In this document: positions 34,080 to 41,629 of the stretch, piece after piece
Position numbering within the stretch: position 1 is the stretch's first letter
Layout: each line of letters opens with the position of its first letter
Assembly: GCF_000144695.1 (NCBI RefSeq)
Contig: NC_014378.1
Location: forward strand, 1,214,781 to 1,278,780
Origin: Acetohalobium arabaticum DSM 5501
GTDB taxonomy: Bacteria > Bacillota > Halanaerobiia > Halobacteroidales > Acetohalobiaceae
Direction of reading: 5' to 3'
Length of the DNA: 64,000 nt
The notes under the pieces: generated by a model
Databases searched by the model: none
The model's input: only the letters and a program-made list of their open reading frames with translations
Told to the model about the DNA's origin: nothing
Made by a program: the position numbers and the translations under genes

Positions 34080-34157
34080 CTTTTCGTTAGATGACCCTCC
34101 CCCAATTTGTTAGACACCCAGTTAAGCGATATAATAGAAGTAACGGAGGTGCTACAA

Positions 34158-34460
34158 TTGGGAGAAAAACGAAAAAGTTATACAGAAGAATTCAAAAAAG
34201 ATGCTGTTGAACTATCAAATAGATCAGATAAAACAGTTAAAGATGTATCTGAAAATCTTGATATACCCTATGGAACTTTAGTTAGATGGCGTCGAGAGTA
34301 TAAAGATAAAGGTGATCTTGCTTTTCCAGGCCATGGCAAACAGAAACTAACTTCTGAACAAAAAGAAATTCAAAGACTAAAAAAAGAATTAAAAGATGCT
34401 AAAACAGAGCGTGATATTTTAAAAAAGGCCGTAAGCATCTTCTCGAACGAACCGAAGTAA
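34158..34460 (+). CDS. IS3-family transposase OrfA
   Basis: TTG at 34158 follows CGGAGGTG. The 100-residue protein has a helix-turn-helix ([41 protein letters not shown]) and a leucine-zipper-like coiled coil ([22 protein letters not shown]). It binds the IS ends. A slippery A-AAA-AAG heptamer at 34421-34427 near its end allows a -1 shift into the OrfB frame. Confidence 0.88.
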
Positions 34461-34498
34461 TTTACGGTTTTATCAGGGACCACAGTGATCAATTTACT

Positions 34499-35320
34499 GT
34501 GGTGAAGATGTGTCAGGTTTTAGAGGTGTCCCGCTCTGGATATTATAAATGGTTAAATAGAAAACCATCTCAAAGAGAAAAAATAAATAAAAAATTAAAA
34601 CTTAAAATAGCTGAAATTTACTGGCAGCATAATGGAACATATGGTAGCCCTAGAATTCATAGAGTGCTGCGAAAAGAGGGTTATACAGTGAACATTAAAA
34701 GAGTTGCTAGGTTAATGCGGATAATGGGTTTAAAAGCAATTCAAAAAAGAAAGTTTAAAAGAACTACCAATTCAAATCATGACTTACCTTTAAAAGAAAA
34801 TCTCCTAAAAAGGGATTTTGATATAGATAAACCAGATAAAGTCTGGGTCTCTGATATTACTTATATATCAACTAAAAAGGGTTGGCTTTACCTGGCAGTT
34901 GTAATTGATCTCTATTCAAGAAAAGTAGTTGGCTATTCTATGAGTAAAAGAATAAATACAGATTTAATAATGTCAGCAACTAAGATGGCTATAAGTCGCC
35001 GCAACCCTGAAGCAGGACTTATATTCCACTCTGATAGAGGTAGCCAGTATGCAAGCCACAAATTACAGAATTTATTTAAACAGCATAGCATTAGATCCTC
35101 AATGAGTCGTAAAGGTGACTGTTGGGATAATGCAGTTGCTGAGAGTTTCTTTGGTAGTTTGAAGACTGAGTTAGTTTATCATAAAAAGTATTTAACCAGA
35201 AATCAAGCTAGGTTAGATATATTTGAATATATTGCTGGTTACTATAATAAAGTTAGGCTACATTCATATTTGAATTATATGAGTCCGAAAAACTACGAGA
35301 AAGAGAGAAAAATGGCTTAA
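34499..35320 (+). CDS. IS3-family transposase OrfB (DDE integrase)
   Basis: The rve/DDE domain shows all catalytic residues: D in [11 protein letters not shown] in [12 protein letters not shown], and E in [16 protein letters not shown]. The N-terminal HTH_21 segment ([20 protein letters not shown]) is present. In the -1 frame after the slippery site, reading continues without stop from about 34428 ([20 protein letters not shown]) into this frame, so the active protein is the OrfAB fusion. The frame is intact, so the element may be active. Confidence 0.88.
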
Positions 35321-35367
35321 TATAGTGTCTAATTTAATGGGGGAACCTCAGTTTTGGGGTGTTGGAG

Positions 35368-35662
35368 ATGGAACTAGATATATTACATGTAGATATGGAT
35401 GTCTTTTATGCAGCTATAGAGATAAGAGATAATCCTGAATTAAAGGACAAGCCGGTGATTATCGGTGGGACAAGTAAACAGGGAGTGGTAAGTACTGCTT
35501 CCTATGAAGCCCGAAAGTATGGGATTCATTCTGCTATGCCGATTTTTAAGGCTAAACAGCTCTGTCTAAGATGAGGTATTAAAAAAGAAAATTAGATTAA
35601 TTGGTGTCTCTTTATCCAATTTAAAGCGAAATATTTATCAACAACTAAAGCTATTTAATTGA
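35368..35662 (+). pseudogene. dinB: DNA polymerase IV remnant with internal deletion
   Basis: ATG at 35368 opens a clear Pol IV N-terminus ([50 protein letters not shown]), including the first catalytic Asp residues. It stops after about 68 residues (35574). In another frame, 35570-35662 encodes the C-terminal end of the little finger (KKIRLIGVSLSNL, then QQLKLFN and stop). Some 270-300 residues between are gone, so no functional polymerase is made. The IS3 element lies 18 bp upstream and may have taken part in the deletion. Confidence 0.88.
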
Positions 35663-35688: not shown

Positions 35689-37293
35689 ATGCAGGAACGT
35701 ATATTTAAAGAAGAACCAATGGTTAATATAAAGCAATATATTAATAGCGATCGATTTAATGTTTATCAGCGTAATGAAGCAGGTTTAACTCCTTTGATGC
35801 TTGCGGCTAGGGATAATTCTAGTATTGATGTTGTAATATCTTTAATTAAACAGGGAGCCGAAGTAAATAATCGGGATGAAACCGGCCGAACTGCTTTGAT
35901 GTATGCTGCAGAAGAGAATCCTAATCCTTATCTGGCAGCTACTTTAATTGAGCAGGGAGCAAAGGTTAATGTAGAGGATAAGGATAATAGAACTGCATTA
36001 ATGTATGCTGCTCAAGATAATTTAAATCCCCAAGTGATCAAGATTTTAATGGATAATGGAGCTGAAGTTAATGCTCAGGATAAAGATGAAAGAATCTCTT
36101 TAATGTTTGCTGCGTATAAGAATGATAATCCGGAAGTTATAACTACTTTAATTAATAATGGAGCTAAATTAGAGGCTAGAGATAAATATGGACGGACTGC
36201 TTTGATGTATGCGGCAGCCAGTAATTTTAATTTGGATATCATTACTGCTTTAATTTATAACGGAGCTAAGATTGAAGTTAGAGAAGAAAGCGGTAAGACG
36301 GCATTAATGGTTGCTGCTGAATATAATTTAAATCCTGAAGTTTTGATTGCTTTAATTGAAAATGGAGCTGAGATTAAGGCCAGGGATAAGGATGGATTAA
36401 CGGCTCTAATGTATGCAGCATGCAAGAATGATAATCCGGAGATACTGGATCTTTTAATTGAACATGGAGCAAAGATTAAGGCCAGGGATAGGGATGGATT
36501 TACTGCTTTAATGTATGCGGCGGTGAATACTTCTAATCCAAAAATAATAACTACTTTAATTAATAATGATGCTGATGTAAAGGCTAGAGATAAAGACGGC
36601 TTAACACCTTTGATGTATGCAGCCCAGGGAAATCCTAATTCGAAGGTGATAACTACTTTACTTGATAATGGGGCAGCGATTGACGCTAGAGATAAAGACG
36701 GCTTTACGGTATTGATGTATGCGGCAGCAAATAATTCTGCTTCTGAAATAATAACTACTTTAATCAGTAGTGGAGCTGAAATAGAGGCTAAAGATAGTAA
36801 TGAGAAGACAGTATTAATGTATGCTGCTCAACATAATCCGTATCCAGAAGTAATACTTACATTACTCAATAATGGAGCTGAAATTGATTGTTGTGATGTA
36901 GAAGGTAGAACACCTTTGATGTATGCTGCTGAGAATAAAAATACTAGAATACTTACTACTTTACTTAGTAATGGAGCAGAAGTTGGAGTTAAGGATGAAG
37001 AGGGAAGAACTGCTTTAATCTATGCTGCTCAAAACAGCTCTGATCCTGAGGTAATAAAGACTTTACTTAATAATGGATCAGAAATTAATATTCGGGATGA
37101 TAAAGAGAAGACACCGTTAATCCATGCAGCAGAAAAAAATAGTAATCCGGAGGTAATTGAGGCTTTATTGGAGCATGGAGCCGATGCTAAGTTAGATAGT
37201 GCTGGAAAGGTAGCGATTGATTATGCTGATGAAAATCAGTCAATAAAGGATACAGAAATTTATTGGAGGTTGAATGATAAGAGTTTTAATTAA
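35689..37293 (+). CDS. Ankyrin-repeat protein
   Basis: The 534-residue protein starts at ATG behind AAAGGAGG. About 15 consecutive ankyrin repeats fill almost the whole length, each near 35 residues and centred on TALMYAA...NPEVITTLINNGAEV-like sequence. There is no signal peptide, membrane helix or other domain. The repeats run longer between helices (N-P-x-V) than the usual 33-residue unit. It is cytosolic and a protein-binding scaffold. Partner unknown. It sits between the dinB relic and a mobile repeat, so horizontal gain is possible. Confidence 0.85.
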   Translation: MQERIFKEEPMVNIKQYINSDRFNVYQRNEAGLTPLMLAARDNSSIDVVISLIKQGAEVNNRDETGRTALMYAAEENPNPYLAATLIEQGAKVNVEDKDNRTALMYAAQDNLNPQVIKILMDNGAEVNAQDKDERISLMFAAYKNDNPEVITTLINNGAKLEARDKYGRTALMYAAASNFNLDIITALIYNGAKIEVREESGKTALMVAAEYNLNPEVLIALIENGAEIKARDKDGLTALMYAACKNDNPEILDLLIEHGAKIKARDRDGFTALMYAAVNTSNPKIITTLINNDADVKARDKDGLTPLMYAAQGNPNSKVITTLLDNGAAIDARDKDGFTVLMYAAANNSASEIITTLISSGAEIEAKDSNEKTVLMYAAQHNPYPEVILTLLNNGAEIDCCDVEGRTPLMYAAENKNTRILTTLLSNGAEVGVKDEEGRTALIYAAQNSSDPEVIKTLLNNGSEINIRDDKEKTPLIHAAEKNSNPEVIEALLEHGADAKLDSAGKVAIDYADENQSIKDTEIYWRLNDKSFN

Positions 37294-39435: not shown

Positions 39436-40368
39436 TTACATATCCGGCATTTCATCAATTGCACTTTTTCGCTGTTCTTTATCAGTATGGGTGTAGATTT
39501 GAGTAGTGGAGATATCACTGTGGCCTAATAGGTCCTGTAATACTCTCAAATCTTTAGTCTTCTGATAGAGCAGAGAAGCAAAGGTATGTCTTAGTTTATG
39601 AGGAGTTATCTTGCTTGCATTTCGAACGCCGGCTTTTTTAGCATATTTTTTGACCATCTTTTGAATAGTACGAACAGAAATTCTTCTTCTTTGATTAGAT
39701 AAAAATAAAGCTTGGCGTGCATCTTGGTTTTTAGGAGTAATTTTATTTCTATCAGGTAGATAATCTTTAATTGCCGTAAGAGCTTCTTGATGTAAAGGTA
39801 CATAACGTTCTTTGTTTCCTTTGCCGAAGAACTTTATAGATTGATCTTCATAATTTATATCATCAAGATTTAGATTAACTAATTCTGAGATCCTTAAACC
39901 ACTATATAAGAATAATTTATTGATAGCTAAGTCTCTACTGCAGTATTTAGAATTATAGTTTTTAATAGCCTCAAGATATTTCTCCATGTTTTTTTCGTTG
40001 AGATAGATGGGTTCTGATTTTAATTCTGATTTACTGGCTTCAATGGAATCAGTAGGATTATTTTTGATTATGTTTCGTTTTTTAAGATATTCAAAGAACG
40101 AACGTAAGCTATATAATTTTCTATTTCTAGCTTCTGGGCTATTATCTTTTACTAATATAATATCACTTAGAAATTCACTTACTTCAAATCGATTAATGTT
40201 AGTTACATTTAATTCTTCTAAGTTGCAATCAAATTCTTTTTCAAGATATCTACCAAATACTGATAAATCATGCTTATAATGGTTTACAGTAGATTCAGAA
40301 TATCCACGTTCCGCAATTAAGTATTTAGTAAAGCTATTAATTGCTTTGTGATATGTTAAATTTCTCAT
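39436..40368 (-). CDS. Tyrosine recombinase, XerC/XerD-like
   Basis: The 310-residue protein has an N-terminal SAM-like core-binding domain (INSFTKYLIAERGYSESTVNHYKHDLSVFGRYL) and a full catalytic domain: Arg in YSGLRISELVNL, HKLRHTFAS, LGHSDISTTQIYTH with the nucleophilic Tyr near residue 291. All residues for DNA cleavage are present. It may be a chromosome-resolution XerC/D or an integron/element recombinase. A perfect 11-6-11 palindrome lies just upstream (40400-40431) next to a second recombinase-like gene. Confidence 0.88.
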   Translation of the reverse strand: MRNLTYHKAINSFTKYLIAERGYSESTVNHYKHDLSVFGRYLEKEFDCNLEELNVTNINRFEVSEFLSDIILVKDNSPEARNRKLYSLRSFFEYLKKRNIIKNNPTDSIEASKSELKSEPIYLNEKNMEKYLEAIKNYNSKYCSRDLAINKLFLYSGLRISELVNLNLDDINYEDQSIKFFGKGNKERYVPLHQEALTAIKDYLPDRNKITPKNQDARQALFLSNQRRRISVRTIQKMVKKYAKKAGVRNASKITPHKLRHTFASLLYQKTKDLRVLQDLLGHSDISTTQIYTHTDKEQRKSAIDEMPDM

Positions 40369-40399
40369 TATTTTGTCCTCCTTAGTTTATTTTCTTCTA

Positions 40400-40431
40400 A
40401 ACCTTCGTTAAATATATGTTTAACGAAGGTT
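40400..40431. other. Perfect palindrome with dif-like geometry
   Basis: AACCTTCGTTAAA (40400-40412) and TTTAACGAAGGTT (40419-40431) flank TATATG. Trimmed to 11-bp arms and a 6-bp centre it has the layout of a Xer recombination site, and the centre resembles the TATATA of Firmicute dif. The arms do not match dif consensus. It could also be a terminator for the gene at 40438, although T runs are poor on both sides. Confidence 0.4.
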
Positions 40432-40437
40432 ATTATA

Positions 40438-41382
40438 TTATAAAACTTTATGATTAAGTTTTATTTCATTGATACGGTTTTTGCCTATACCACAAATACT
40501 CTTTATCAAATCAAAATTATCTGTAATTGTTAATAATGTTTTGATAAAGAGTTGTCTTAAGTTATTAGCAGTTAGTTTAAAATTTAATTTATCCTCTATT
40601 ATAGAACGATACTTTGCAATTACCATCTGCAAAGATCTATGATTCATTCTATTACCTCGTGTAGAAACAAATAAGGGTTTATTTTGAGATTCAATATTAT
40701 TCTGTATATGTCTTTCTAGTGTTGGTATTAATTCTTTATTTATTGGCATTAAGTGAGTTTCATTGTTTCTAGTAAATATTAATGCTCTTTTGGATAAATC
40801 TATATCTTTATAATCTAAATCTATTAATTCTGAAGTTCTTAAACCAGTATAAGAGATTAATTTTATTGCTAGTGAATTTCTTATCCAATTTGTTTTTTGT
40901 TCTGTTTTAATAGTTTGAAAAAGTTTATTGATATTCTTTGGAAGGTATTGATCTACTTTTTGAATAATTTCTTTTTTATCTTGGAAAGTTATTGCTTGGC
41001 TTTTAGATTGTAACTTTCCAAGCCATTCACTATAAATATCAAGGTAATATTCTAAGTCTACTCCTGCTTTTTCAACATGCTTTGTATTTGAAAAACTTAA
41101 TTCTGGTAATTCTACAGTCAACGGACAATTAAATTTATTTTCCTTATTATTACATGGGTTATATTTATTTATATAAAATATTTCATACATTGCTAATTCA
41201 TAGTTATTATTAACTTTAGCATAATCATAGTATCTTATATTTTTGCGCCAAAATGAATCAAGATTGTACTTTTTGTAATTACTAAAATGGGTTCTGATTC
41301 TTAATTCTATTCTTTCCAATTTAGTCCTTCCAATATAAATTATCTCCTTATCTTTATTATATAATCGATAAATATACACTTC
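40438..41382 (-). CDS. GIY-YIG nuclease domain fused to a degenerate tyrosine-recombinase domain
   Basis: GTG at 41382 lies 8 bp behind GGAGG and starts VYIYRLYNKDKEIIYIGRT, exactly a GIY-YIG domain. In-frame starts further upstream fall in a terminator. Residues 1-75 are GIY-YIG-like, including R...HF and a Glu (ELAMYEIFYINKYNP). Residues about 150-314 follow a phage-integrase fold with the first Arg in SYTGLRTSELIDLDYKDIDL, but the His-x-x-Arg box is NNLRQLF and no Tyr nucleophile follows (the box reads CGIGKNRINEIKLNHK). Thus the recombinase part likely binds DNA without strand exchange. It is upstream of, and on the same strand as, the complete recombinase. Confidence 0.75.
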   Translation of the reverse strand, partial: EVYIYRLYNKDKEIIYIGRTKLERIELRIRTHFSNYKKYNLDSFWRKNIRYYDYAKVNNNYELAMYEIFYINKYNPCNNKENKFNCPLTVELPELSFSNTKHVEKAGVDLEYYLDIYSEWLGKLQSKSQAITFQDKKEIIQKVDQYLPKNINKLFQTIKTEQKTNWIRNSLAIKLISYTGLRTSELIDLDYKDIDLSKRALIFTRNNETHLMPINKELIPTLERHIQNNIESQNKPLFVSTRGNRMNHRSLQMVIAKYRSIIEDKLNFKLTANNLRQLFIKTLLTITDNFDLIKSICGIGKNRINEIKLNHKVL

Positions 41383-41419
41383 ATTTTCCTCCAATTTAAT
41401 CATAAATAGATTTAACAAA

Positions 41420-41446
41420 AAAGCAACCACTGTAAATGGTTGCTTT
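41420..41446 (-). terminator. Intrinsic terminator of the Cys-rich gene
   Basis: AAAGCAACCA pairs with TGGTTGCTTT. On the minus strand a TTTTTT tail follows. Confidence 0.85.
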
Positions 41447-41455
41447 CATAAATGA

Positions 41456-41629
41456 TTATTCATATTTGATATCTGAAACTTCAATGGCTCTAAATTCTTG
41501 ATTACCCTCTATGCATTCCATGCAGTTATCACATATTTTGGTTTCGTCGAGGTCACAATAATTACATTCCCCGCAGTCAGTACAGGGTTTATGTTCTAGC
41601 ACACACTCAGATATTTTCGATGTACTCAT
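41456..41629 (-). CDS. Cys-rich mini-protein, 57 residues
   Basis: The frame begins MSTSKISECVLEHKPCTDCG and has eight cysteines arranged C-x7-C-x2-C-x2-C-x2-C-x8-C-x2-C-x2-C, ending DIKYE. The spacing suits two zinc or iron-sulfur sites. Similar small proteins occur in clostridia, but I know no function. The SD is weak (AGGGTTGG). The downstream terminator supports an independent transcript. It stands near lexA and the recombinases. Confidence 0.65.
   Translation of the reverse strand: MSTSKISECVLEHKPCTDCGECNYCDLDETKICDNCMECIEGNQEFRAIEVSDIKYE

Follow-up and report, generated by a model that had tools for sequence, protein, structure and literature searches.

A GIY-YIG nuclease joined to an inactivated Xer-type recombinase domain beside the probable dif site of Acetohalobium arabaticum: a possible homing-like nuclease aimed at dif

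INTRODUCTION

Why should a gene for a GIY-YIG nuclease with a recombinase-like tail be located directly beside a palindrome and an intact Xer-like recombinase gene, and what may its product do there? The question is raised by a locus of Acetohalobium arabaticum DSM 5501, contained in a stretch of 64,000 nucleotides that is referred to here as the window (NC_014378.1, positions 1,214,781 to 1,278,780; all coordinates below are those of the window). The original prediction, made from the letters alone, proposed that the tail may direct the nuclease either to control recombination or to target a specific site. The features needed to follow the argument are these:

39436-40368, minus strand: Xer recombinase of 310 aa, intact; a mosaic gene, conserved here throughout the 13 genomes of the order
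39650-41410 (approximate), no strand: tract foreign relative to the congener G001, made up of the fusion gene, dif, and about 700 bp at the start of xer
40400-40431, no strand: very probable dif site, 28-bp core 40402-40429, CCTTCGTTAAA-CATATA-TTTAACGAAGG on the minus strand
40438-41379, minus strand: GIY-YIG/inactivated Xer-type recombinase fusion, 313 aa, GTG start
40438-40998, minus strand: inactivated tyrosine-recombinase catalytic-domain tail, about residues 128-313 (Pfam, alignment, AlphaFold2, Foldseek)
41080-41379, minus strand: predicted GIY-YIG nuclease head, about residues 1-100 (Pfam, alignment, profile, structure search)
41456-41629, minus strand: gene for a 57-aa Cys-rich protein, a conserved neighbor in most genomes of the order that marks the native upstream flank

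RESULTS

The fusion gene and its two halves

The chimeric gene is real. It is a single open frame on the minus strand (40438-41430 in the list of open reading frames) with a likely GTG start at 41377-41379, eight bases after a GGAGG, giving 313 residues. Pfam assigned consecutive stretches of this one protein to GIY-YIG (34.1 bits, curated cut-off 22.6) and then to Phage_integrase (65.5 bits, curated cut-off 27.1), so that the clear GIY-YIG head seen earlier and the integrase-like tail both hold in HMM searches. The survey for the same fusion found a second example in Natroniella sulfidigena, with 44% identity and the same start residue, and this rules out an erroneous joining of two frames. 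Both halves are basic, and the fusion genes of Acetohalobium and Natroniella have a GC content of 24% and 22%, respectively, versus 34% for the whole window. A promoter scan around the gene yielded no more sites than were found in shuffled sequence.

In the head, Y4, Y15-x-G17, R27, H31, E66, and N78 are invariant in an alignment of three sequences, the fusion, its Natroniella orthologue, and a relative on the viral contig L088. These correspond to the established active-site positions of the GIY-YIG family; the Tyr, Tyr, Arg, His, Glu, and Asn expected of the superfamily are thereby present together with the domain score. A profile built from the three heads found the GIY-YIG domain of UvrC with an E value of 1.1e-6. 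The structural model of the head was of low confidence (pLDDT 53), and its top matches were again UvrC GIY-YIG domains (E value of 0.07). Phage GIY-YIG families, some of them endonuclease families, match the head as well. Identity between the two fusions is 63% over 108 residues of the head and 44% for the whole protein. Judged by its conserved residues, the head is a GIY-YIG domain predicted to be an active nuclease.

The tail is, by alignment and predicted fold, a Xer-type recombinase domain that has been inactivated. Aligned with intact Xer proteins, it retains Arg-I within TGLRTSEL in the window protein, where the Natroniella orthologue has a Lys, and it retains Arg-II. The Lys of the beta hairpin is missing, the His of HxxR is replaced by Asn, and the protein ends just behind the third His box, with Tyr and the C-terminal helix gone. 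It does not, therefore, carry the R-K-H-R-H-Y set of an active tyrosine recombinase. The earlier reading that TGLRTSEL was kept and the catalytic Tyr lost agrees with this alignment, in which no such Tyr could be found in the tail; the statement that the His box had been lost needs a correction, since the terminal "NHK" may be what is left of the third such box. Homology to the Xer catalytic domain is indicated by the Phage_integrase score, by the AlphaFold2 model (residues 128-305 with a pLDDT of mostly 80 to 90), and by its Foldseek matches to XerA, Tn1549 Int, and XerH. It begins near the end of the N-terminal domain, with the GIY-YIG head occupying the place of the core-binding domain. The tail diverges fast. 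In the tree it is nearest to the neighboring xer, which favors a descent from that gene, yet a grouping with the other Xer family was not rejected (AU P of 0.415).

The palindrome and the intact recombinase

The palindrome at 40400-40431 has the 11-6-11 symmetry of dif sites and is unique in the genome. It precedes xer by 33 bp, and on the chromosome (2,469,596 bases in one contig) it lies at 50.8% of the length. The GC skew switches its sign here, with the cumulative peak at 40,108, about 0.3 kb away. In 12 of the 13 genomes of the order, all but G005, the orthologous xer was preceded by a dif-like site, and in most of these 12 the local skew peak was within or near xer. The palindrome is thus very probably the dif site of the chromosome, and site, replication terminus, and adjacent recombinase gene together have the make-up of a Xer/dif locus for dimer resolution. 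The neighboring 310-aa recombinase is intact, as had been stated, and occurs at this locus in all 13 genomes, with 51 to 75% identity and a gene order that is mostly conserved. Because the palindrome qualifies as dif and xer is conserved throughout the order, this protein is very probably the core dimer resolvase. Symmetrical dif arms would suit one recombinase for both halves of the site. No second dif-like site was found between 37 and 45 kb, the sole one being the dif beside the fusion. A Xer-exploiting element or a dif-module cassette was ruled out on this basis, since a module moved by Xer itself should have a second flanking dif.

An apparently broken gene was observed elsewhere in the window. 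A two-frame IS3-type transposase (34107-35574) lies directly upstream of a 71-aa fragment of dinB, the gene for DNA polymerase IV, whose product has 351 aa in the congener, so that the window copy appears to be broken. The gene beside it (35689-37293) encodes an ankyrin-repeat protein of 534 aa that is also present in the congener.

Distribution and insertion site

Most genomes of the order have a conserved block composed of the Cys-rich gene, dif, xer, and a MurJ-like gene. The fusion gene is located between the Cys-rich gene and dif in both of its carriers, which belong to genera of different families, so that the pairing with dif and the 310-aa recombinase holds in both. Its reading frame stops 8 bp short of the dif arm in Acetohalobium and 6 bp short of it in Natroniella, where the one orthologue found (294 residues, genome G006, L034:5001-5885) has the same position. 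Carriers account for 2 of the 13 genomes of the order and 2 of the 59 of the class, and a search of 398 genomes of the phylum yielded no other; phyla beyond that of the window were covered by one pattern scan of genome contigs for fusions of the same plan. Phage records, plasmids, and viral contigs yielded single-domain matches but not the fusion. Empty alleles were present in 11 of the 13 genomes of the order, and a search of these for relics of the fusion gene gave nothing better than chance. The empty allele of G002, which has identical dif arms, reads terminator-AAAAGAAAA-dif. A gene inserted at this point, behind the terminator and in front of dif, disrupts neither dif nor xer, and the host would keep its dimer resolution. 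In occupying a fixed spot that is empty in relatives, the gene shows a feature of free-standing homing endonucleases.

Another gene was observed at the same spot in G011, a 134-aa open reading frame (L076:6988-7392) between the Cys-rich gene and dif that looks like a membrane protein by eye, with an apparent remnant in G012. The spot beside dif accepts other inserts, too.

Mosaic flanks

Comparison of the window with its congener G001 in bins of 150 bases showed about 78 to 88% identity in the MurJ-like gene and the end of xer, a drop to 63 to 73% at about 39,650 inside xer that persisted up to the fusion, and a return of similarity at about 41,410 on the far side. Windows of 90 bases gave 92% identity to G001 at the start of the last xer part, and the earlier parts of xer were mostly closest to G002, G009, or others. 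Trees agreed with this break. For xer bases 1 to 690 a clade of the window and G001 was rejected (AU P of 2e-88), the window grouping instead with G002, G009, and G008 (100/99), which share its dif type; for bases 721 to 930 it paired with G001 (92/90), as it did in the trees of the MurJ-like gene and Lnt. By these relationships the fusion gene, dif, and about 700 bp at the start of xer form a foreign tract in Acetohalobium, and the last 210 bp and both flanks are native. Natroniella and its congener G009 gave a similar picture, with their clade rejected for bases 1 to 690 (P of 0.008) and supported for the last 210 bases (92/92), which points to a mosaic xer in this pair also, although either one may be the changed member.

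Two dif types, with TTCGTTAAA and TTCGCAAAA arms, track different clades of the first xer part across genera (L071-L081). The dif site and the first part of xer thus seem to travel together, with exchange points inside xer, and dif and the specificity of the recombinase seem to be exchanged as a module. G002, G008, and G009 have the same dif type and related 5' parts of xer without the fusion, which indicates that not every exchange depends on the gene. These genomes may have lost it, or their exchanges may have been ordinary recombination. Co-conversion of flanks during homing would leave a mosaic tract such as this one, yet similar swaps exist in genomes without the fusion gene.

DISCUSSION

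A nuclease that may home to dif

The explanation that we prefer, giving it about an even chance of being correct, is a free-standing, single-gene, homing-like GIY-YIG nuclease that is aimed at dif by an inactivated Xer catalytic domain. The tail would bind dif as a whole or in part, and in chromosomes without the gene the head would cut or nick a few bases beyond the end of the site. Repair from a gene-bearing homologue would then place a copy of the gene beside dif and bring in the donor's dif and 5' part of xer as well, so that cleavage would be the cause of the mosaic tract. The inserted gene would leave dif and xer intact, and the host would retain chromosome-dimer resolution. Several observations argue for this: nuclease residues are intact and the recombinase is dead in both orthologues; the gene ends 8 or 6 bp from the dif arm in genera of two families; 11 genomes have empty alleles without relics; the foreign tract, which contains an AT-rich gene, has one end within xer and is bordered by native sequence on either side; and the head matches phage GIY-YIG families, with precedents in Odn, TnsF, and dif-adjacent insertion sequences (see below). 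Patchy distribution and mosaic flanks speak for a mobile, homing-like nuclease and against a permanent partnership with the recombinase. Against homing, the family has two members only, and dif type and xer 5' parts move or persist without the fusion. The core-binding domain helps tyrosine recombinases to grip DNA, and its replacement by a nuclease makes binding of dif by the tail alone uncertain. The suggestion that the protein targets a specific site fits well with these data, the palindrome flagged at the time being very probably dif, to which the tail would bind.

A bolder version is tentative and would sooner fail than hold: the nuclease homing to dif may drive the replacement of dif and of the specificity-bearing first part of xer, so that a selfish gene would reshuffle dimer resolution.

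A host accessory of the Xer/dif system is unlikely. The dead tail would join Xer on dif, and the head would nick to regulate or aid dimer resolution, in keeping with the same spot beside dif and an intact xer in two distant genera and with a head that is more constrained than the whole protein. However, the fusion is absent from 11 of the 13 genomes having the same xer/dif locus, and its tract is AT-rich and foreign. Xer subunits swap a C-terminal part with their partners, and the tail is devoid of this part. Control of recombination, the other role originally proposed, is less likely, with xer in all 13 genomes of the order and the fusion in two only.

There is a slim chance that the protein is a nuclease for defense or competition that cuts incoming elements with dif-like sites, for instance Xer-integrating ones. 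Odn is such a chimera serving as immunity (PMC8263062) and Xer-exploiting elements are known (PMC5357621), but the cell's own dif, intact 8 bp away, would need to be spared, no dif-bearing invading element was near the locus, and no defense genes were recognized beside the fusion. Equally improbable is a decaying passenger without present function, once a nuclease-recombinase gene, that arrived when ordinary homologous recombination swapped the dif-xer segment. Such a passenger would agree with the fast divergence of the tail and with swaps of this segment in genomes without the gene, but not with an open frame, a shared start position, and a full set of nuclease residues in two lineages at 44% identity.

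Relation to known systems

The nearest mechanistic relative of the homing-like nuclease is, by analogy, Odn (Gp88) of phage ICP1, a GIY-YIG-superfamily nuclease whose RepA_N domain aims it at the replication origin of a satellite (PMC8263062). Both combine a nuclease related to homing endonucleases with a domain captured from the normal binder of the target site; Odn is phage-borne and uses RepA_N for a satellite origin, whereas the fusion uses a Xer catalytic domain and is located on a bacterial chromosome beside its presumed target, dif. With free-standing GIY-YIG homing endonucleases of the I-TevI/Seg type it shares the nuclease head, the single gene beside a presumed target, empty alleles, and mosaic flanks. 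Known GIY-YIG homing endonucleases mostly have NUMOD-type binding domains (PMC1564403), unlike the recombinase domain here; in the text of this survey of the superfamily, integrases are unmentioned and no member with a recombinase domain was found.

An inactivated tyrosine recombinase also serves as target selector in TnsF of Tn6022, and Tsy elements encode a TnsF-like protein, a separate GIY-YIG nuclease, and an active recombinase (PMC10293859). TnsF is like the fusion in using a dead recombinase for target choice; in contrast to it, the TnsF and Tsy components are separate proteins of larger transposons, with insertion into comM, zinc fingers, and two CB domains. Insertion sequences of the IS1202 family insert 5 bp from a dif arm in fixed orientation (PMC10132070), which indicates that insertions next to dif can be tolerated. 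They are similarly close to the dif arm but have a transposase, terminal inverted repeats, and target duplications, whereas the insert described here encodes only the fusion. A limited literature search found no report of a GIY-YIG/Xer fusion. GIY-YIG nucleases themselves are known; the type of targeting domain on such a nuclease and the presumed target appear to be new.

Nearly all bacterial chromosomes have a dif site, so a nuclease able to recognize it would have a target almost everywhere. Like Odn, the fusion may illustrate how a nuclease can be aimed by a domain that apparently came from the protein family serving the target. Homing would suggest why dif and xer are swapped as a unit, and this would make the evolution of recombinase specificity testable.
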